Source: Candidatus Undinarchaeales archaeon
Lineage (GTDB): Archaea; SpSt-1190; JASMDC01
Length of the DNA: 64,000 nt
Reading direction: 5' to 3'
NCBI GenBank assembly: GCA_030753015.1
Contig: JASMDC010000007.1
Span: 62,001 to 126,000, forward strand
A program made the position numbers and the translations under genes. Below, piece after piece: positions 8,632 through 40,056 of the stretch; the first letter of the stretch is position 1, and each line of letters starts with the position of its first letter. The notes beneath the pieces are model-generated. The model had not been told where the DNA came from. It did not search any database and was given only the letters and a program-made list of their open reading frames with translations.

Positions 8632-9795
8632 ATGAGAAGGGCATACAAGTTCAGGCTGTATCCGAACAGGGAGCAGACTGGCCGTCTGGAGCGGACGCTG
8701 GAAACGTGCCGTATCCTCTACAACGAACTCCTTGCAGAGAGAAAGGTGACTTACGAGGTGACGGGGGGTGGGATTAGTTACTTCGAGCAAAAACGCAATC
8801 TAGTCAAGATGAAGAAGGTGAACGATCATCTGGCACAGGTTAACGCACAGGTGTTGCAGGACGTCACCCGTCGTATCAAGAGATCGTTCGACGCATTCTT
8901 CCGCAGGATCAGGGACGGGAAAAAACCGGGGTATCCGAGGTTCAAAGGGAGGGGGCGGTACAAGTCCTTCACCTACCCCCAGCATGTGAAGAGTTTCAAG
9001 ATCAAGAGCGGGCGGCTTTCCCTCTCGAAGATAGGCGAGGTGCGTATGTTCCAGCATCGTCCCATCGAGGGAGTCATCAAGATGTGCACGCTTAAGCGGG
9101 ACGACATCGGCGACTGGTCAGTCATCATCGTATCAGAGCTGAAGGACACTCCGAAGATAGCCATCGAAGAGACGATCGGCGTTGACGTCGGGCTGAAGAA
9201 CCTGGCTGTCGCTTCTGACGGATTGATCCTCGAGCCTCCCACATGCCTCCGTGGCTCGGAGAAGAAGCTCGCGAAGCTCCAACGGCGGCTGAGCCGGAAG
9301 ACGAAGGGAAGCAAGAACCGAGAGAAGGCACGGGCCAAAGTGGCTAGACACCATCGGAAGATCGCAAGACAGAGACGAGACCATCTGCACAAGGCCTCAC
9401 GCTGCCTTGTCGATTCTGCTGATCGCATTGTCTTTGAGAACCTTAATATCAACGGGATGCTCACAAACCATCATCTTTCCAAGTCGATAGCAGACGCGTC
9501 CTGGGGGACGCTCATCCAGTTTACGATGTGCAAGGCTGAGAGTGCCGGCAAGTCGGTCGAACTGGTACCCCCCAGGAACACGTCACAGCTATGTTCACAA
9601 TGCGGCGCGTTCGTAAGGAAGTCCCTGTCCATGAGGACGCACAGATGTCCCGAGTGCGGGCTCGTGATGGACAGGGATCTGAATGCCGCCATCAATATAC
9701 GGGACAAGTTCACCCTCGGGCAGAGGGGTAGGGCCTGTGGAGCCGTCTCCGTTGGGAGGGGCGATGAAGCAGGAAGCTCACCGAATTATCGGTGA
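8632..9795 (+). CDS. tnpB: TnpB, RNA-guided nuclease of an IS200/IS605 element
   Basis: A full-length TnpB (387 aa). It opens with the usual 'YKFRLYPNREQ' N-terminus and has a basic helical domain. The split RuvC nuclease is intact: D185 in GVDVGLKNL, E269 in FENLNI, and the third Asp in the MDRDLNAAIN motif (D347/D349). A C-x-x-C...C-x-x-C zinc ribbon (CSQCG, CPECG) sits between the last two. TnpB proteins are programmable DNA endonucleases guided by an RNA from the element's right end and help retain the IS. The reading frame closes inside the right-end hairpin, which is typical. No TnpA transposase gene is present in the window. Confidence 0.93.
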   Translation: MRRAYKFRLYPNREQTGRLERTLETCRILYNELLAERKVTYEVTGGGISYFEQKRNLVKMKKVNDHLAQVNAQVLQDVTRRIKRSFDAFFRRIRDGKKPGYPRFKGRGRYKSFTYPQHVKSFKIKSGRLSLSKIGEVRMFQHRPIEGVIKMCTLKRDDIGDWSVIIVSELKDTPKIAIEETIGVDVGLKNLAVASDGLILEPPTCLRGSEKKLAKLQRRLSRKTKGSKNREKARAKVARHHRKIARQRRDHLHKASRCLVDSADRIVFENLNINGMLTNHHLSKSIADASWGTLIQFTMCKAESAGKSVELVPPRNTSQLCSQCGAFVRKSLSMRTHRCPECGLVMDRDLNAAINIRDKFTLGQRGRACGAVSVGRGDEAGSSPNYR

Positions 9796-21328: not shown

Positions 21329-21952
21329 TCAGGGTAGCCATACCTCTCTGACGTTGTACCTGACGCCCTCACCGTTCAGGAAACCAGTCATCCCTCCTAA
21401 GGAACGCAGGGGGACGAGGAGCACGCCCCGTCCAAGCCTCGTGCCGCCCAGCATCTCTACCTTGCCCTTTGACGTGTATGTCTTCTCACCCACCTTCTGC
21501 GAGTAACCGTAGAGGGCACGCCATAGCTTCACCTTCCTTGCACGTTCCAAATCGGCGAGGTCGAGCTCGAACAATCCTTGCCCCTCCATGTTCTTCGGGA
21601 CGACACTGGACGGTCCATAGAGGGTGACTGCCGACTCCGCGAGGGCCGACTGCAGGGACTCCCAGGTCTCCAACCTACCCACTCGGAGCGAGATTGGATT
21701 CCTTATACCCTCGAGATGGTGCTTCCTTGCATCCTCTGACGCCTCGAAGAGGTCGAGCCGGCCACGTATCCTCTTCTCGTATCCATCGTCCTCGATATCG
21801 ATGAACACGTCGATGTCGCTCTCCTCGTCGAAGTCGCCGCGTGCCACAGAACCGAACACGAGCACTCGCTGGACGGCGGTGCCGATAGCCGGATCCTTGA
21901 TGAGGAACGACACAAAGCTCGATGCATAGGAAAGAAGGTCATACCTGTTCAT
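21329..21952 (-). CDS. Minimal nucleotidyltransferase (MNT-type) protein
   Basis: The N-terminal half is a polymerase-beta-type nucleotidyltransferase domain: the G34-S35 motif in 'VFGSVARGDFDEESDIDVF' with the two catalytic Asp at D46 and D48. A C-terminal extension of about 120 residues has no motif I recognise. MNT proteins paired with HEPN proteins act as antitoxins that AMPylate the HEPN toxin. The start at 21952 ('MNRYDLL') overlaps the HEPN-like gene by 14 bp; the upstream ATG at 21976 is less likely. The two genes form one operon. Confidence 0.82.
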   Translation of the reverse strand: MNRYDLLSYASSFVSFLIKDPAIGTAVQRVLVFGSVARGDFDEESDIDVFIDIEDDGYEKRIRGRLDLFEASEDARKHHLEGIRNPISLRVGRLETWESLQSALAESAVTLYGPSSVVPKNMEGQGLFELDLADLERARKVKLWRALYGYSQKVGEKTYTSKGKVEMLGGTRLGRGVLLVPLRSLGGMTGFLNGEGVRYNVREVWLP

Positions 21953-22349
21953 CCGACCACCCTCCGTCAAGGCCAAGTATCCTGGACTCTATGTTAGTGA
22001 AGAGCTCGAGAACCCTCTCGATATCTCCTTGCTCCTTGGGAGCACCGTACGCGAGATTCTCGCTCTGATCCTCCAACTCCACCATGAGGTCCACGACAGC
22101 CTCCCTGTCGGGGAATGTCGGGAGCCGCTCAAGAACAGTCTTAGATTTGAACCAGCGATGGTTGATCTGGGCCCCTGAAGTGATCAGGTTCTTCAAGTGA
22201 AGGTCTGCTGAGAGCAGTTCGACGACGCTCCGTGAAGCATGCAGCCCGACGATCCTCTGGGCATTCACCAGTCCCCGGACCCTCAAAGCCCATTCGAAGA
22301 TGGCCAGCCTGTGCTCCCGATAGGCATTAAGATGGTCCTCGTACCGCAT
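21939..22349 (-). CDS. HEPN-like partner of the nucleotidyltransferase
   Basis: A 136-residue all-helical protein. It has an R-x4-H sequence in 'AQRIVGLHASRS', followed by 'VELLSADLHLKNLI' and 'NHRWFKSKTV', a pattern I associate with archaeal proteins paired with MNT nucleotidyltransferases. The R-x4-H is nearer the N-terminus than in classic HEPN RNases, so assignment to the toxic HEPN class is tentative. The ATG at 22349 is about 26 bp from the TATA core of the first operator copy. Expected role: RNase toxin controlled by the downstream nucleotidyltransferase. Confidence 0.65.
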   Translation of the reverse strand: MRYEDHLNAYREHRLAIFEWALRVRGLVNAQRIVGLHASRSVVELLSADLHLKNLITSGAQINHRWFKSKTVLERLPTFPDREAVVDLMVELEDQSENLAYGAPKEQGDIERVLELFTNIESRILGLDGGWSDEQV

Positions 22350-22360
22350 AGGTATATTAT

Positions 22361-22436
22361 ATGTGACTTAGTATATAAAAATTATGTTACTAAGGCGCAT
22401 ATGTCACCTAGTATATAAAATTTATGCGACTAAGTA
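22361..22436. promoter_or_regulatory. Duplicated 34-bp operator containing TATA boxes
   Basis: Two direct copies, 22361-22394 and 22401-22434, lie 40 bp apart and differ at about five bases. Each has the inverted pair CTTAGT or CCTAGT ... ACTAAG around a central TATATAAAA. The copy nearer the HEPN gene has its TATA core (read on the minus strand) about 26 bp from the ATG at 22349. The arrangement fits a repressor that covers the promoter in tandem. The stretch from 22437 to 22544 shows nothing further. Confidence 0.65.
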
Positions 22437-32287: not shown

Positions 32288-33076
32288 TTGAAACAAAATA
32301 TTTCGCTTGGATCGAAGGAGGTCGAGCTCCTCTCGACACTGGAGCGTGAGCGACGGGACGTCTTCACTGTCGACGACGCGCGGTCGGTCCTCGCGGACAC
32401 CTCGCACCAGGTTGTCAGGAACCTGCTGTCGGGGCTCGCTGCCAAGGGCCGCGTCCAGAGGATCAAGCGGGGTGTCTACCTGCTCGTTCCCTTCAGGCAT
32501 CGTGACTGGGCCGTGCACGAGCTCTCGCTCGTACCGGTCCTCGCCCGTGACGCGTACGTCTCGTTCGGTTCAGCGCTGCGCTTCTGGGGGATGACCGCCC
32601 GCATCGGCACTGTCGTCACCGCGGCCGTCAGGAGACCTGTCCGGGAACGCGCGTTCCAGGGGACCTGGTACCGGTTCGTGGCACTGGCGGACAGGTTCTT
32701 CTTCGGGCACCGTGCCGTCATGCTCTCGGGAAGGTCCGTACGAGTGGCGACGAGGGAGAAGGCCGTGCTCGACTCACTGCTCCACCCCGAGCACTGCGGG
32801 GGCATCGGCGAGGTAGCACGTGTGGTGAGGGACCATGCAGGTGAGCTGGACTGGGCGCGGGTGGGGCGACACCTGCACAGGATGGACAGCAGCGCCGTAG
32901 AGAGGCGGCTCGCGTACATCCTCCACCACCTCGGACTGGGAGAGTTACTACCCGGAGTAGTCAAGAAAGGATATGATGGATACCGTCCACTCGATCCCCG
33001 GGGCCCGGCCGAAGGGCCGTACGACGGGAAGTTCGGTCTTCGGATCAACGTCGGGCTGGACGAGGTCATGTCATGA
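32288..33076 (+). CDS. AbiEi-type antitoxin/transcriptional regulator
   Basis: The N-terminal ~80 residues are a winged-helix domain ('VFTVDDARSVL...HQVVRNLLSGLAAKGRVQRIKRGVYLL'), typical of AbiEi-like antitoxins. The remainder resembles the AbiEi C-terminal domain, with 'YVSFGSALRFWGM' and 'ATREKAVLDSLLHPEHCGG'. In type IV AbiE systems this protein counters the nucleotidyltransferase toxin and represses the operon. The start is TTG at 32288; it is about 27 bp from the TATA-like CTTATATAC (32255-32263), as expected for a leaderless message. The stop overlaps the next start by 4 bp. Confidence 0.8.
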   Translation: MKQNISLGSKEVELLSTLERERRDVFTVDDARSVLADTSHQVVRNLLSGLAAKGRVQRIKRGVYLLVPFRHRDWAVHELSLVPVLARDAYVSFGSALRFWGMTARIGTVVTAAVRRPVRERAFQGTWYRFVALADRFFFGHRAVMLSGRSVRVATREKAVLDSLLHPEHCGGIGEVARVVRDHAGELDWARVGRHLHRMDSSAVERRLAYILHHLGLGELLPGVVKKGYDGYRPLDPRGPAEGPYDGKFGLRINVGLDEVMS

Positions 33077-33867
33077 GCATCGGGAGCAGGGAGTCGCTTG
33101 TCGAGGCGGCGCGGCGGTATGGGATGAACCTCGGGAACGCCGAGAAGGATTACGTCCTGTCGGTCGCGCTCATCGGGCTCTCACGACTCCGTGAGGCCCG
33201 CGCCCTCGTCTTCAAGGGGGGTACATGCCTGAGGAAGGCGTACTTCGACGGCTACCGCTTCTCGTCGGACCTTGACTTTTCAGGAGAGATCGGTGACATC
33301 GAGGGGCTGAGGGGTGCGATCCATCGCGCGTTCGACGGCATAACACTGGAAAAGGTGCGGTTCACGAAGGTCAAGGACATGACCATGACGGGAAAGCAGG
33401 GGATGACGCTGTCCCTCAAGTACCGGAGCCTCATCACTGACAGACCGCACACTAACAGCATACGGCTTGACATGAGCTTCGACAATCCACCGCTGATGCC
33501 GCCGGTCCGGAAATGGCTCACGCCCCCCGTCGAGTACGGCCTCGAGCTGTTGATGACCCGTGTCATGCCCCTCGCAGAGATACTCGCGGAGAAGGTCCAT
33601 GCCATCTTCAAACGCTCGAAACCGAGAGACCTCTACGATATGTGGTTCCTGCTCTCGGGCGGGACCGGATTCGATCGGGAGCTGGTGGATAGGAAGCTCT
33701 TGGCACTGGGAATCGTCTTCGAGAGGGGGGCGTTCGAGGATAGGCTAGTACTGCTTGGGACGGGGTGGGAGCGAGATATGCGGGATCTCATGGCGTCCTA
33801 CCCTTCCTTCGAGGAAGTCAGGAACCAGACGCTCCGGATGCTGGCGGGGGAGGGATATTCCTCCTGA
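33073..33867 (+). CDS. AbiEii/AbiGii-family nucleotidyltransferase toxin
   Basis: A 264-residue nucleotidyltransferase. The family core is visible as 'LVFKGGTCLRKAYF' (G49-G50-T51) followed by 'RFSSDLDFS' with catalytic D66 and D68, and then 'LAEKVHAIFKRSKPRDLYDMWFL', the conserved Lys and RDLYD block. AbiEii proteins transfer nucleotides to a cellular target, proposed to be tRNA, and give bacteriostasis and abortive phage defence. The 4-bp overlap with AbiEi supports coupling. The RNA repeat array begins about 120 bp downstream with its own TATA box. Confidence 0.87.
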   Translation: MSIGSRESLVEAARRYGMNLGNAEKDYVLSVALIGLSRLREARALVFKGGTCLRKAYFDGYRFSSDLDFSGEIGDIEGLRGAIHRAFDGITLEKVRFTKVKDMTMTGKQGMTLSLKYRSLITDRPHTNSIRLDMSFDNPPLMPPVRKWLTPPVEYGLELLMTRVMPLAEILAEKVHAIFKRSKPRDLYDMWFLLSGGTGFDRELVDRKLLALGIVFERGAFEDRLVLLGTGWERDMRDLMASYPSFEEVRNQTLRMLAGEGYSS

Positions 33868-33956: not shown

Positions 33957-33966
33957 GTTTAAAATT
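33957..33966 (+). promoter_or_regulatory. TATA box for the RNA repeat array
   Basis: GTTTAAAATT with a purine-rich stretch before it (AGAAG) resembles an archaeal BRE/TATA pair. A start about 26 bp downstream would fall near 33986-33989, at the beginning of the structured region and not at any start codon of a plausible protein. Confidence 0.55.
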
Positions 33967-33999
33967 CAATCCACTATAGCGGTGAGTCCGGCCTTTCGC

Positions 34000-35050
34000 T
34001 AGGCGCCCTTCGGGGCGAACCGGCGAGGAGTCGCGGGTCGTCCGGCGTGTGTTTCGATGTGTGCTGGGCGGCGCGGCAGAGGGGCCCTGATGCGCAAGCT
34101 GACGGGCGCTGATGTCGCTGCAAGGGATGCCTGAAAGGGTGCCGGCAACGGCGCTTGGGATGGTATGTCTGGCACCGACCCCGGGCCGCTTGGCGGCGCT
34201 TCGGCGCTGGCGGGTGGTGCGGCCGACAACCGCTGTGGCGCAAGCCGCGGAGGTGCGACGGTCGCGGCGAGGGGTGCTTGAATGGGTGCCGGTGACGGTG
34301 CCCGTGAAGGCGGTCCTGGTCCCGCGGGCCGCCCGGTGGCGCTTCGGCGCTGGTGGGCGGGTTGGCCTGAAAAGAACCGGGGCGCAAGTCTCGGGGAACG
34401 GATGGCCGCGGCAGTGGACGCCCGTGTGGCGCTGGCAACGGCGTTGCGTACGGTGGTGCTGCTCTCGGGATCCGACGGGTCGTCCGGTGGCGCTTCGGCG
34501 CTGTGGGGCGGCGTGATCGGCGGTGAACCGCGGCGCGAGCCGTGGGGAACGGTCGGTCGCTGCGAGGGATGCCCGCAAGGGCGGCTGGCAACGGTCGTTC
34601 GGAGGACGTTTCTGGTACCGGCTCCGGTCCGGCCGGTCGGCGCTTCGGCGTCGGTTGGGAGGTGCGGCCCGTTGCTCCGTGGCGCAAGTCGCGGGGAAGG
34701 GTGGGCCGTGGCGGGGCGTGTCCGAAGGGGTGCCGGCAACGGTGCTCGGGAGGACGTGTCGCGTATCGGGGACCCGGTGGGTTGTTGGATCAGCGTGGAA
34801 GCGAAGGTACAGCGACGCGGCCTGAAAAGAACCGGGGCGTACGTTCCGGGGAACGGGAGGTCGCGGCGAGGATGCCCGAAGGGTGCCGGAAACGGTGTCT
34901 GGGTGTGCATCCCCGCTCCCGAGGCCCGGCAGGGCTGTCCGGCGGCGTTTCGGCGTCGCGGGGCGGAGCGGTCAAGAACCGAACGCGGCTCCGGTCGCGG
35001 ACGGGGAAGGGCCGTTGCAGGGACGCCTGAAGAGGTGCCGGCAACGGTGC
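34000..35050 (+). repeat. Tandem repeat array, period 143-155 bp, about 7.3 copies
   Basis: Sequence identity between units is moderate. Best conserved are 'GGTGCCGGCAACGGTG' (hairpin I), 'GGCGCTTCGGCGCTG' (hairpin II) and 'GGCGCAAGTCGCGGGGAA' (hairpin III). Distances between equal loops are 147, 143, 151, 150, 153 and 152 nt for hairpin II. The copies are therefore old duplications kept by structure rather than recent slippage products. Confidence 0.85.
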
Positions 35051-35084
35051 CACAGAAGGCGCCCCTGTGTCCCAACCTTTCTTT
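35051..35084 (+). terminator. Terminator-like hairpin ending the RNA array
   Basis: Arms CACAG (35051-35055) and CTGTG (35065-35069) close a GC-rich loop, and a T-rich tract (TTTCTTT, 35078-35084) follows. It directly trails the last hairpin I. Confidence 0.55.
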
Positions 35085-35161
35085 CCGATGCTACTTACGA
35101 CTGAGGGGGCTGTAATTCGCTGCCGAAACCCTCATAAACCTCTCTTGTCCATACATCGACG

Positions 35162-35497
35162 ATGCCCTTCCGCCCCAAGCTCCTGAAGGCCGGCATCTGC
35201 CCTGACTGCGGCGGCGACCTGCTGCTCGTGGGATTCGGCGACGTCAGGAAATTGCGCTGCGAGAAGTGCGGGAAGGATGTGGAAGAGCGCACGGTCCCCG
35301 ACGACCGGGATAAGGAGATCGCCGTCATCGACGTGGAGGAGATGGCAAAGAAGATGGGCACGCTCAAGATACGCTGCCGCAACTGCGGTCGTGTCGGTGT
35401 GATGACCTGGCAGCTCCAGACCCGGCGCCCCGACGAGCCGCCGACACAGTTCTACAAGTGCCTGCGTTGCGGACGTGCATGGAAAGAGTCGCGTTAG
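35162..35497 (+). CDS. Transcription factor S (TFS/RPB9-TFIIS-like zinc-ribbon protein)
   Basis: Two zinc ribbons: 'CPDCGGDL...LRCEKCG' (about residues 13-39) and 'IRCRNCG...YKCLRCG' (about 71-107). The C-terminal ribbon carries the 'TRRPDEPPTQFYKC' hairpin with the Asp-Glu pair that enters the RNA polymerase active site and stimulates transcript cleavage. At 111 aa it is the usual TFS size. It would rescue backtracked RNA polymerase. The ATG lies about 27 bp after a TATA-like CATAAAC near 35132-35138. Confidence 0.9.
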   Translation: MPFRPKLLKAGICPDCGGDLLLVGFGDVRKLRCEKCGKDVEERTVPDDRDKEIAVIDVEEMAKKMGTLKIRCRNCGRVGVMTWQLQTRRPDEPPTQFYKCLRCGRAWKESR

Positions 35498-36241: not shown

Positions 36242-36577
36242 TCACAGCATAGCAAGGGCTATGAAAATGACTAGCAGCGGCAGCCAGAGCGGCAGGAGGG
36301 CGAGCCCTAGAACGACCGAGGACTCCAGAAAGAGGAAGGGGAACACCAGCTTCGTCCCGCTGAACATCCGCGTGGGCTTGTGGAGCTGCATCCCCAAGAA
36401 GTAGACGATGATGTAGTAGTTGAGCACGAACCCGGGCACGGTGAACGAGTCGGAGGCCGGCAGCCCCGGCATCTGGGTGTACTCCTCAACGGAGCGGAAC
36501 CCGTCGTACTCGGGCTGGTGGAGCTCGTACGTCCCGCCCTGCTCGCCCTGTGTGTACAGCACCATGTCCTTGTTCAC
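36242..36577 (-). CDS. Small membrane protein downstream of the AIM24 cluster
   Basis: A 111-residue protein with a polar, Gln/Tyr-rich N-terminus and two or three hydrophobic segments (about 48-65 and 78-110). The GTG start at 36577 overlaps the stop of the upstream AIM24 gene by 4 bp, so it is the last gene of that operon. Function unknown; the coupling suggests it acts with the AIM24 proteins at the membrane. Confidence 0.6.
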   Translation of the reverse strand: MNKDMVLYTQGEQGGTYELHQPEYDGFRSVEEYTQMPGLPASDSFTVPGFVLNYYIIVYFLGMQLHKPTRMFSGTKLVFPFLFLESSVVLGLALLPLWLPLLVIFIALAML

Positions 36578-37206
36578 CCCTTCATCGACTGGATGCCCAC
36601 GTACCCCGGCCCCGTGACCTGGAGCAGGAAGAGCCCCTCGCCACCGATGATGATGTTCTCGAGGCCGTGGACTCTGACCAGCTCCAGCTCGACGCTGTGG
36701 TCCTTGAACACCAGGTACCCCTGGTCGATCATCATGGTCTGGCCCTGCTCGAGGCGCGTGATGACGTAGTCACCGTGGACGTGCATGAACACCTTCCCCG
36801 GTCCCGTGAGGTTCTGGAAGATGAGGTTGTCGCGGGCGAAGCTGGCCATGCCGATGAGCCTGATAAGGCTGTGGGACGCCAGGGAGATGGAGAACTGCAC
36901 TGTAGGTTCCATGGCCAGGAAGCCCGAGTGGGCGATGTCGATGGCCTGGCCGGGCTGGAGGTCGAGCTCCTTGATCATCCCTGGCTTGCCGGCGGCGATG
37001 GCGACGGTGCCCGGACCTTCGTACTTGTCCAGTGCCGCTGACTCGCCGGTGAACAGACGTGAGAAGAACCCCATCCCCAGAACGGCGTCGGAGTGGATGT
37101 CGGGCGTTTCGTACAGCATGGCTCCGCGCTCGCACACGATGGTCTCGCCCTGGTAGAGGTCGACCTCCATGACGGGTGCGAAATGGCCTATGATACGTGT
37201 CTCCAT
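36574..37206 (-). CDS. AIM24-family protein, third of three paralogues
   Basis: A 210-residue beta-rich protein of the AIM24/TIGR00266 family. Family features are 'QGETIVCERGAMLY' near the N-terminus, repeated 'GPG.v.i' turns, 'LQPGQAIDI', and 'IIIGGEGLFLLQVTGPGYVGIQS' at the C-terminus (cited in two overlapping parts: IIIGGEGLFLL and VTGPGYVGIQS). The ATG at 37206 comes 5 bp after the previous gene's stop, so this is a tight operon. The family's biochemical role is unclear; the yeast homologue supports inner-membrane organisation. The longest frame (to 37404) only overlaps its neighbour. Confidence 0.85.
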   Translation of the reverse strand: METRIIGHFAPVMEVDLYQGETIVCERGAMLYETPDIHSDAVLGMGFFSRLFTGESAALDKYEGPGTVAIAAGKPGMIKELDLQPGQAIDIAHSGFLAMEPTVQFSISLASHSLIRLIGMASFARDNLIFQNLTGPGKVFMHVHGDYVITRLEQGQTMMIDQGYLVFKDHSVELELVRVHGLENIIIGGEGLFLLQVTGPGYVGIQSMKG

Positions 37207-37210
37207 CCCA

Positions 37211-37843
37211 TCACCACCCCGTGCTCTGGACGCCCACCTTGCCGGGGCCCGTGGCGGTGAGGAGGAAGAGCCCCTCGCCCCCGATGAACACCTTGCGCAG
37301 CCCCTTGATCCTGGTGAGGTCCACATCGACCGATGGGTCCTTGTAGGCCATGTAGCCCTGGTCGAGGTCCATCTTCTGTCCTTGTGCCAGGGTGACCTCG
37401 ACAAGGTCCCCCTTCACCACGACGAACACCCTTCCGGGTCCGGTGAGCTTCTGATAGAAGAATCCCTGGCCACCGAAGAGGAACCTCCAGGGGAGGATGC
37501 CCTTCCACACCCGCTCGATGCCGTACGAGAGGGTGATGTCGCCGGCCATGAACGCGCCTTTGCACACGTCGACGGACTGCCCCGGGCCCAGGTCGAGCTC
37601 CCTTATCATCCCGGGAGAGGAGGCCGAGAGGCCGATGACGCCCGGACCGGTGTACTTGTTCACGGCGATGGTCTCGCCCGTCAGCCACTTCTTGATAGCG
37701 GCGAACAGGCCGCCCACCATGCTCTCCATATGTGTGGAGGAGGATGCGTAGATCATGGCCCCTGCCTCGCACATGATGGTCTCGCCCTCGTTGAGCTGGA
37801 CCTCGAGGATGGGCGTGTATCCGCCGATCTTGCGGATGTTCAA
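37211..37843 (-). CDS. AIM24-family protein, second of three paralogues
   Basis: A 210-residue AIM24-family protein ('NEGETIMCEAGAMIYA', 'LGPGQSVDV', 'FIGGEGLFLLTATGPG'). It starts at TTG 37843, which overlaps the stop of the preceding paralogue (TTGA). It is clearly homologous to both neighbours but diverged enough to be an old duplication. The three proteins may form a mixed ring or barrel assembly, since the fold is a trimeric beta structure in related proteins (inference). Confidence 0.85.
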   Translation of the reverse strand: MNIRKIGGYTPILEVQLNEGETIMCEAGAMIYASSSTHMESMVGGLFAAIKKWLTGETIAVNKYTGPGVIGLSASSPGMIRELDLGPGQSVDVCKGAFMAGDITLSYGIERVWKGILPWRFLFGGQGFFYQKLTGPGRVFVVVKGDLVEVTLAQGQKMDLDQGYMAYKDPSVDVDLTRIKGLRKVFIGGEGLFLLTATGPGKVGVQSTGW

Positions 37844-38550
37844 ATCAGCCTCAACCTCCTGGCCCGTGAATAGGGGATGGACCGTCCCATGATGAACATG
37901 CTCTTGATGGAGTGGATGCCCACGTAGCCGGGCCCCTCCAGCTCGAAGAGGAAGAATCCCTCACCGCCGAGCAGGCCCTTCTTCAGGGTGTCGAATATCC
38001 CCTCACCCACCTTGCGCAGGGTGACGGCAACGGTGCTGTCCTTGAACAGGAAATGCTTCTCGTCCATCACGAGCTTCTCACCGGGCTGGAGGTACTTGAT
38101 AACGCAGTCGCCGGGGACGTGGATGAACACCGTTCCAGGGCCCTGGATCTTCTCCAGCACCAGTCCGACACCCGACAGTCCGACCAGGATCTTGTTGACG
38201 ATCCCGCCGCCCAGGAGCTCAGTGACCCATTCGATCGAGAGGTTGACGGTGTTCTCCGCCGCGAGGAACGCGGCTTTGCTCACGTCCAGTTTCTGGCCGC
38301 CCTCGAGCGTGACGTAACGCACATCGCCGGGCGAGGACTTGGACATGCCCAGGGTACCGGGTCCCGTGTAGAGGTTGAGGGCCACGGTCTCGCCCGAGGC
38401 GGCGCGGCCGAACAGGCCCTTCACGCTGGCCTCGAACTCCATGTCGTGGTCCTTGTAGATCATGGCCCCGCCCTCGCAGTAGACGGATTCCCCTACTTCG
38501 AGCGTTGCCTCAAGTATGGGGATGAACCCTCCCATGACCTTGAAGTTCAC
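37840..38550 (-). CDS. AIM24-family protein, first of three paralogues
   Basis: A 236-residue AIM24-family protein ('EVGESVYCEGGAMIYKD', 'LEGGQKLDVSK', 'GGEGFFLFELEGPGYVGIHS'). It has a basic C-terminal extension not shared with the other two. I place the start at GTG 38550, which has GGAGGG about 8 bases upstream; the longer frame to 38895 runs into trkH on the other strand. A TATA element at 38590-38598 is shared with divergent trkH, leaving a leader of about 15-20 nt here. Confidence 0.85.
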   Translation of the reverse strand: MNFKVMGGFIPILEATLEVGESVYCEGGAMIYKDHDMEFEASVKGLFGRAASGETVALNLYTGPGTLGMSKSSPGDVRYVTLEGGQKLDVSKAAFLAAENTVNLSIEWVTELLGGGIVNKILVGLSGVGLVLEKIQGPGTVFIHVPGDCVIKYLQPGEKLVMDEKHFLFKDSTVAVTLRKVGEGIFDTLKKGLLGGEGFFLFELEGPGYVGIHSIKSMFIMGRSIPYSRARRLRLI

Positions 38551-38589
38551 TGAAACCCTCCCCGTTGTGCTCTCTAATGGCTGGCAATT

Positions 38590-38598
38590 GATATAAAG
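38590..38598. promoter_or_regulatory. TATA element between the AIM24 operon and trkHA
   Basis: GATATAAAG reads as a TATA box on the plus strand, centred 26 bp before the trkH ATG (leaderless). On the minus strand it reads CTTTATATC, about 44 bp before the AIM24 GTG, which instead has a Shine-Dalgarno. One element may therefore drive both directions. Confidence 0.5.
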
Positions 38599-38619
38599 GA
38601 AACGCTCAAGGATGGTGCC

Positions 38620-40056
38620 ATGCGCGTGCGGGTCATCGCGGCCTACCTGGGGGCCGTGCTGCGCATCGTCGGTGCCACGCTCCTCGTCCCCGCCCTGATG
38701 GGGGCGGCGGCGGGCGAGCCATGGTACACCGTCTCGGCACATATCGTAGCTGCGGTCCTGGCCCTGCTGTGCTGGACCGTGTCCCGGCACCTCGTGATCG
38801 AGGCCCCCACGGTCCAGGAGGCTATGGCCGTGTGCACCCTCTCGTGGGTGGTGGTCTCGGGCGTGGGGGCCATCCCGTTCTACCTGGTCGGGCACATGAC
38901 CCCTCTAGACGCGTACTTCGAGGCCGTCTCGGGATTCACGACCACGGGCATAACCATGGTGGCCGATCCCGCCGCCCTTCCTGCAAGCCTCCTGCTGTGG
39001 CGTGCGCTCACCCAGTGGCTGGGGGGGCTTGGGATCCTCACCTTCTTCCTGGCGGTGGTGGTCCCCGGCTCGTCGGCGGCGTTCCAGCTCTTTGCCGCAG
39101 AGACACACAAGGTGGATGCCGGGCGCCTGCGCCCCGGGCTGATCTCGTCGATCCAGGGGCTGTGGTGGGTGTACGTGGGGCTCACCGTGGCCGCGGCGGT
39201 CACGTTCGCTGCGCTCGGGATGGATCCCTTCGACGCACTGGCCCACGCGCTGACATGCCTCTCCACAGGCGGCTACTCGACCCGGGCAGCAAGCATCGCC
39301 GCGTACCCCGCCGCCGTGGTGCCGGCCATCATCCTCTTCATGGCCCTAGGCGGAGTGAACTTCGCCATAATTCACCTGGCGCTCACCAAGGACCTGCGCC
39401 GGGCCCTGGGCAACTACGAGCTGAAGGCCTACGTCCTCATCATCGTGCTCACCACGCTCCTGGTGTGGAGCGACCTGCGCTGGCATACCGCACCCACCGG
39501 CACCGAGGGCTCGGAGGCCGCCTTCCAGGTGGTGTCCGTACTCACGTCAACGGGCTTCGCCACCCGGGACATCGGGACGTTCCCGGCGGTGTCGCGCGTG
39601 GTGTTCCTCGTGCTCATGGTCATTGGCGGGTGCGTGGGCTCCACTGGCGGCGGGCTCAAGGTGGCCCGGTTCGTGCTCCTGCTCAAGCTCGCCCGACGCG
39701 AGCTGTACCGCCTGCGCATCCCCCGACGGGCGGTGGCGCCCGTGGTGGTAGCAGAGAAACCCGTGCCCGAGTCCGCACTCACCCGCATCGCCGGTATGTT
39801 CGTGCTCTACCTGGCACTGCTGCTGGTCGGTACCCTGGTAACCCTGGCGTTCCACGGGGACATGGGGCCCTTCGAGGCGGCCAGCGGGATGTTCTCGGCG
39901 CTGGGCAACATCGGGCCCTGGTACGTGCCTGCGGGCACGCAGCTCCACGCCGCCGTCAAGCTAACCTATATATTTGGTATGCTCGCAGGTAGGCTTGAGA
40001 TCCTGCCGCTCCTGGTCCTGGCCGATCCCAAGACCTGGAAAGGCTTCCCAAGGTGA
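38620..40056 (+). CDS. trkH: TrkH-family potassium uptake membrane subunit
   Basis: Potassium-translocating subunit with four pore repeats. The four filter-loop segments are visible: 'SGFTTTGITM', 'LSTGGYST', 'TSTGFATRD' and 'ALGNIGP'. Around ten or more membrane helices cover 478 residues, the usual length. The ATG at 38620 is leaderless relative to the TATA box at 38590-38598. The gating subunit TrkA is encoded 8 bp downstream, so the two form one operon for regulated K+ uptake. A 'GGCVGSTGGG' segment precedes the fourth repeat, as in other TrkH proteins. Confidence 0.94.
   Translation: MRVRVIAAYLGAVLRIVGATLLVPALMGAAAGEPWYTVSAHIVAAVLALLCWTVSRHLVIEAPTVQEAMAVCTLSWVVVSGVGAIPFYLVGHMTPLDAYFEAVSGFTTTGITMVADPAALPASLLLWRALTQWLGGLGILTFFLAVVVPGSSAAFQLFAAETHKVDAGRLRPGLISSIQGLWWVYVGLTVAAAVTFAALGMDPFDALAHALTCLSTGGYSTRAASIAAYPAAVVPAIILFMALGGVNFAIIHLALTKDLRRALGNYELKAYVLIIVLTTLLVWSDLRWHTAPTGTEGSEAAFQVVSVLTSTGFATRDIGTFPAVSRVVFLVLMVIGGCVGSTGGGLKVARFVLLLKLARRELYRLRIPRRAVAPVVVAEKPVPESALTRIAGMFVLYLALLLVGTLVTLAFHGDMGPFEAASGMFSALGNIGPWYVPAGTQLHAAVKLTYIFGMLAGRLEILPLLVLADPKTWKGFPR

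Follow-up and report, generated by a model that had tools for sequence, protein, structure and literature searches.

Few large structured RNAs lack an assigned function, and the most familiar of them are bacterial or phage-borne. GOLLD, ROOL and OLE were described from bacteria and phages, and chains of GOLLD and of ROOL associate into homo-oligomers made of RNA alone, held together by kissing loops and A-minor contacts (PMC12286853). In CsrB and RsmZ each RNA carries many repeated hairpins, and the model is that of multivalent protein binding or sequestration (PMC5027483, PMC7652899). ToxI, the RNA of type III toxin-antitoxin systems, is formed by 36-nt repeats in 5.5 copies (PMC5377504).

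The window considered here is a stretch of 64,000 nucleotides from a Candidatus Undinarchaeales archaeon. Its plus strand carries, at 34034–35078, seven tandem units of 148, 143, 151, 149, 150, 156 and 148 nt, which confirms the original prediction of units of about 150 nt with three hairpins each. Every unit consists of three arms and a short closing stem of the CGGG...CCCG type. Arm I is about 34 nt long and ends in a loop of the UUCG type. In arm II (about 46 nt) the terminal loop is of the GCAA type and the internal loop is rich in purines (GAA/GGA), whereas arm III (about 50–55 nt) combines a GNRA loop with an internal loop rich in GA. The closing stem is formed by about four pairs, one of which shows a two-sided change. 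Upstream of unit 1 and outside the repeat units, an additional leader hairpin with a UUCG loop is seen at 33994–34028 (plus strand), both in the sequence and in the minimum free energy (MFE) fold. To our knowledge, no described RNA family has this design.

The pairwise identity of the seven units is 54–70%, which is too low for Tandem Repeats Finder; applied to the window, it misses the array. Despite this divergence of 30–46%, the arm-to-arm spacing within units is constant to 2–3 nt. The distances between loops are 41, 40, 41, 41, 40, 42 and 41 nt for arms I and II, and 51, 52, 51, 53, 52, 50 and 51 nt for arms II and III, exactly as given originally, with the arm labels shifted by one (II, III and I there are I, II and III here). 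The spacing between units, from the arm III loop to the next arm I loop, varies more, from 51 to 61 nt.

Arms II of units 3 and 6 (34364–34412 and 34819–34867) are an atypical pair. They have GGCCTGAAAAGAACCGGGGCG in common, exactly, and are identical at 80% of positions over the arm and at 86% over 49 nt, while the whole units are 62% identical. Such likeness suggests either gene conversion or a special site common to the two arms, possibly a binding site. A candidate kink-turn or box C/D motif, UGAUG...CUGA in arm II of unit 1, was rejected, as by eye most other units have near-symmetric internal loops.

Seven diverged copies amount to an internal alignment, so that one genome suffices to deduce the fold with good confidence. 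For the region 33986–34985 the MFE z-score against dinucleotide shuffles is −3.76 on the plus strand and +2.55 on the minus strand. Single units folded separately have z-scores from −1.7 to −5.3 on the plus strand and between −0.7 and +1.3 on the minus strand. In the alignment of the seven units, standard pairs occupy 90.9% of the consensus-pair cells, and two-sided changes are observed in 17 of the 48 pairs; the paired-base stem changes quoted in the original prediction are present and hold across the array. None of 500 column shuffles reached the observed value on any of five measures. When the partner columns are slid by 1–3 positions, pairing falls to 39–51%, this control being somewhat self-favouring, as the structure was derived from the same alignment.

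The held-out test is free of that bias. The covariance model R2, trained on units 2–5 only, recovers the three units left out of the training at 70–77 bits: unit 1 (34034–34181) at 69.7 bits (E 1.8e-11), unit 6 (34775–34930) at 69.6 bits (E 1.9e-11) and unit 7 (34931–35078) at 77.4 bits (E 6.7e-13). The next-best match in the window has 21 bits. The four remaining units, all on the plus strand and described by the R1 model, are unit 2 (34182–34324, fold z-score −5.26), unit 3 (34325–34475, also seen as repeat family D2 at 86% identity), unit 4 (34476–34624, fold z-score −3.66) and unit 5 (34625–34774, fold z-score −3.05).

Since the units share descent, we also applied a tree-aware null model, in which the inferred substitutions were reshuffled on the neighbour-joining tree in such a way that every branch kept as many changes, and of the same types, as before. 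Pairing under this null is 71%, or 79% if changes are confined to paired or unpaired columns, compared with 90.6% observed; the number of pairs with two-sided changes is 4.5–6.2, compared with 16 observed. In neither case did any of 1000 replicates reach the observed value. Covariation beyond shared descent, characteristic of a large structured non-coding RNA, is therefore present, and the original expectation that it would survive such a correction holds. The array has a defined fold, and selection maintains it.

Arm I has UUCG in six units and GGAA in unit 6. Arm II has GCAA in units 1, 2, 3 and 5, GCGA in unit 4, GUAC in unit 6 and UCCG in unit 7. Arm III has GCAA in five units, GUGA in unit 2 and GAAA in unit 6. 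Thus 20 of the 21 loops are GNRA or UNCG, in agreement with the GNRA and UUCG/UCCG types initially reported, and replacements (UUCG by GGAA, GCAA by UCCG) stay inside this stable set, the sole exception being GUAC. In an unconstrained fold, 17 of 20 tetraloops belong to the set, compared with about one in six in 20 dinucleotide shuffles. No single-stranded recognition motif common to all units was seen. As the loops interchange within stable sets, a structural role suits them better than sequence-specific recognition of the loop.

These replacements bear on the possibility that the array is a self-assembling RNA particle, in which the seven domains would pack through tetraloop or A-minor contacts to give a ring, a rod or a cage, as an intramolecular analogue of GOLLD and ROOL. 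The chain does have seven like domains, GNRA caps and purine-rich internal loops that could dock, and RNA-only multimers are indeed made by GOLLD and ROOL (PMC12286853). However, the change of one GNRA loop to UCCG and the GUAC loop in an arm II would break a strictly conserved contact, and we regard such packing as unlikely.

The strand of the folding molecule is indicated by the wobble pairs. G-U is observed in 86 of 331 paired cells, whereas A-C, which is G-U on the opposite strand, is observed in three; pairing is 90.9% on the plus strand and 65.9% on the minus strand. Hence the plus-strand RNA is the folding molecule. Alternatively, the array could be a DNA element with no role for RNA, either a tandem repeat rich in GC or a site that folds when single-stranded, as integron attC does. 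It would agree with the tandem arrangement and with the composition of the array stretch, 72% GC compared with about 60%. However, G-U pairs are unstable in DNA, the preservation of pairs is under selection, and the loops are RNA tetraloops. Further, attC would require core sites in each unit, whereas the array contains one GTTRRRY and zero RYYYAAC sites. The G-U pairs and tetraloops argue for a plus-strand RNA and against a hairpin site acting at the DNA level, and the DNA explanation is quite improbable.

Coding repeats could also produce a long periodic region, and stop-free runs over the array reach 361 codons; in particular, a 358-codon minus-strand frame at 33999–35075 spans it. However, the longest stop-free run in dinucleotide shuffles is 297 ± 56 codons, and 25% of the shuffles reach 361. 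The unit lengths, 143–156 nt, are not multiples of three and break the reading frame, the two longest frames over the array have no match in a Pfam search, and the changes follow base pairs. The array does not look coding on either strand, as had been suggested, and we consider a protein-coding repeat extremely improbable.

The boundaries of the putative gene may be assigned from the flanking sequences. A TATA-like box, TTTAAAAT, with AGAAGG just before it, lies at 33958–33965 (plus strand) and may serve as the promoter. Leaderless genes in the window have TATA-like boxes about 31–35 nt upstream of the ATG, and applying the same spacing to this box places the probable start site near 33986–33989. 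At the other end, CCCAACCTTTCTTTCC directly follows the last arm, and the pyrimidine- and T-rich tract at 35074–35086 (plus strand), in the AACCTTTCTTTCC region, is a likely transcription terminator, although a scan for terminators of the bacterial type did not call it. These two elements suggest an independent transcript of about 1.1 kb (33986–35090, plus strand) with its own promoter, a putative non-coding RNA that the fold z-scores of 33986–34985 support. Downstream of the array, the gene of a TFS-like zinc-ribbon protein (35162–35497) has its own TATA motif about 31 nt before the ATG. Taken together, the TATA box, the T-rich end and the separate TATA motif of the next gene argue for a stand-alone RNA gene. 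The box, the T-rich end, the leader hairpin and the closing stems were not part of the original prediction.

Upstream of the array, on the same strand, are the AbiEi gene (32288–33076) and the AbiEii gene (33073–33867), the latter ending 91 nt before the TATA box. Together (32288–33867) they are a toxin-antitoxin pair of type IV, here on the chromosome of an archaeon. One could suppose that the array is a binding partner or decoy of the AbiEii nucleotidyltransferase, much as type III systems use repeated RNAs as antitoxins, given the proximity on the same strand and the fact that ToxI is also a repeated RNA (PMC3985639, PMC5377504). But AbiEii already has a protein antitoxin, AbiEi, and AbiE is a type IV system, whose partners do not interact (PMC3985639). 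Moreover, the ToxI repeats are 36 nt compared with about 150 nt here, and a promoter of its own apparently drives the RNA. The same genome has another AbiEii-like match, interrupted by an in-frame TAG, on contig C29 (61216–61722); there the RNA model finds nothing credible, and hence the AbiE neighbourhood may be a coincidence. We consider a partnership with AbiE improbable.

Other features of the window include a guided TnpB of the IS200/IS605 type (8632–9795, NCBIfam 326 bits) and, at 36574–38895 on the minus strand, adjacent AIM24-like frames, of which 37840–38895 matched Pfam AIM24 and the neighbours are similar by eye. A pair of genes at 21329–22349 (minus strand) encodes a small protein and an MntA/HalB-like nucleotidyltransferase. 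Just upstream of it, at 22359–22434, two 40-nt direct repeats with a TATA-like sequence are likely an autoregulated toxin-antitoxin promoter.

The search for relatives covered several levels. At gathering thresholds, Rfam 15 has no family matching the window, consistent with the original remark that no RNA family of this design was familiar; the best match in a lax search is ybhL, with 20.8 bits compared with the cut-off of 50 (E 1.1). GOLLD, ROOL and OLE gave no match in these scans, as far as they are included in Rfam 15. In the 3.85-Mb genome from which the window comes, the only credible matches of the R1 model are the seven units. It finds none in nine other genomes of the phylum, all of other families, and the wider archaeal sets likewise yielded no credible match; with overlaps included, the total came to 1038 genome searches, and those spanning more than 40 genomes were run with stricter filters. 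A single weak match, at 24.3 bits (E 0.039 per genome in a search of 389 genomes), is GC-rich with many broken pairs and was rejected as a chance one. A pattern scan of a collection of genome contigs was too loose, yielding at least 119 matches, with no match above 22.3 bits in the loci retrieved. Of three scans of viral contigs, two were empty and the yield was four chance matches, and distant BLAST against plasmids and phages gave nothing. In the open-access literature, subscription papers being outside the scope, we found no description of such an RNA design.

As the relatives searched all belong to other families and the filters were stricter in the searches of more than 40 genomes, absence elsewhere is weak evidence. 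The internal divergence of the units indicates that the array is old, and orthologs are to be expected in unsampled close relatives. The genome has 3.85 Mb, compared with only 0.6–1.1 Mb in the nine relatives from the phylum; the estimated contamination of the assembly is 5%, and no 16S rRNA was found in it. We regard the array as a new RNA family, with the caution due to a single locus and a predicted transcript. The original interpretation as a structured tandem-repeat RNA is supported; the status of a "new system" is unproven, since one species is involved and the function is predicted.

The following scheme is consistent with these observations. A domain of about 148 nt could have been duplicated in tandem long ago, yielding a seven-unit gene for a structured non-coding RNA of about 1.1 kb. 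Each unit would then be one rigid binding module, with its closing stem of about four pairs, three stiff arms and very stable GNRA or UNCG caps. Seven modules in a chain would make a multivalent platform that either holds several copies of a protein, as a scaffold, or titrates the protein, as a sponge. Stiff capped arms, constant spacing and seven copies would suit a platform presenting the same module repeatedly. We propose such a protein scaffold or sponge tentatively, at somewhat less than even confidence.

An alternative reading of the same layout is a precursor: the 1.1-kb transcript would be cleaved in each linker that separates an arm III from the arm I after it, releasing seven RNAs of about 150 nt, or 21 shorter ones, that act in trans. 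The larger variation of the spacing between units agrees with this, as does the ability of each unit to fold alone (z-scores from −1.7 to −5.3). However, the closing stem joins the ends of the unit, so the linker is not open; neither a conserved motif for cleavage nor a guide sequence was seen; and the arms are almost wholly paired, leaving little sequence for pairing with targets. Processing of this kind seems rather unlikely.

Considered more broadly, the array is somewhat more probably than otherwise a new archaeal class of large RNAs, built of seven four-way-junction modules, serving as a scaffold or a self-assembling particle, and unlike the described families in design. The module is small enough to be made and its structure solved, and the partners of seven tethered modules are a directly testable question. 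Further, looking inside one genome for RNA repeats that have diverged can reveal RNA classes missed by comparative search when a second species has yet to be sequenced.

Known systems resemble the array in different respects. The L17 downstream element and the psaA motif are small bacterial motifs that, like the array, have GNRA or UNCG loops, but they are short, do not form a tandem array and show no Rfam similarity to it. For the former, the strand was also inferred from G-U pairs and GNRA loops (PMC2864571). ToxI shares with the array the tandem repetition of a structured RNA and the position next to a toxin gene. However, the units of 143–156 nt do not correspond to a repeat of about 36 nt, and the array has no endoribonuclease of the ToxN/AbiQ type beside it, its neighbours being AbiEi/AbiEii and the TFS-like zinc ribbon. 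The hairpins of CsrB and RsmZ have a common GGA binding motif, whereas GGA is present in only one of the 21 array loops (GGAA in arm I of unit 6), unlike in a sponge of that kind; the repeat here is a three-arm domain of about 148 nt with interchangeable stable tetraloops. GOLLD, ROOL and OLE are, like the array, long, heavily structured, stand-alone prokaryotic RNAs with no settled function, and GOLLD and ROOL are the nearest to it in kind. These two, however, are single complex folds, several chains of which assemble, whereas the array is seven copies of a simple domain in one chain.
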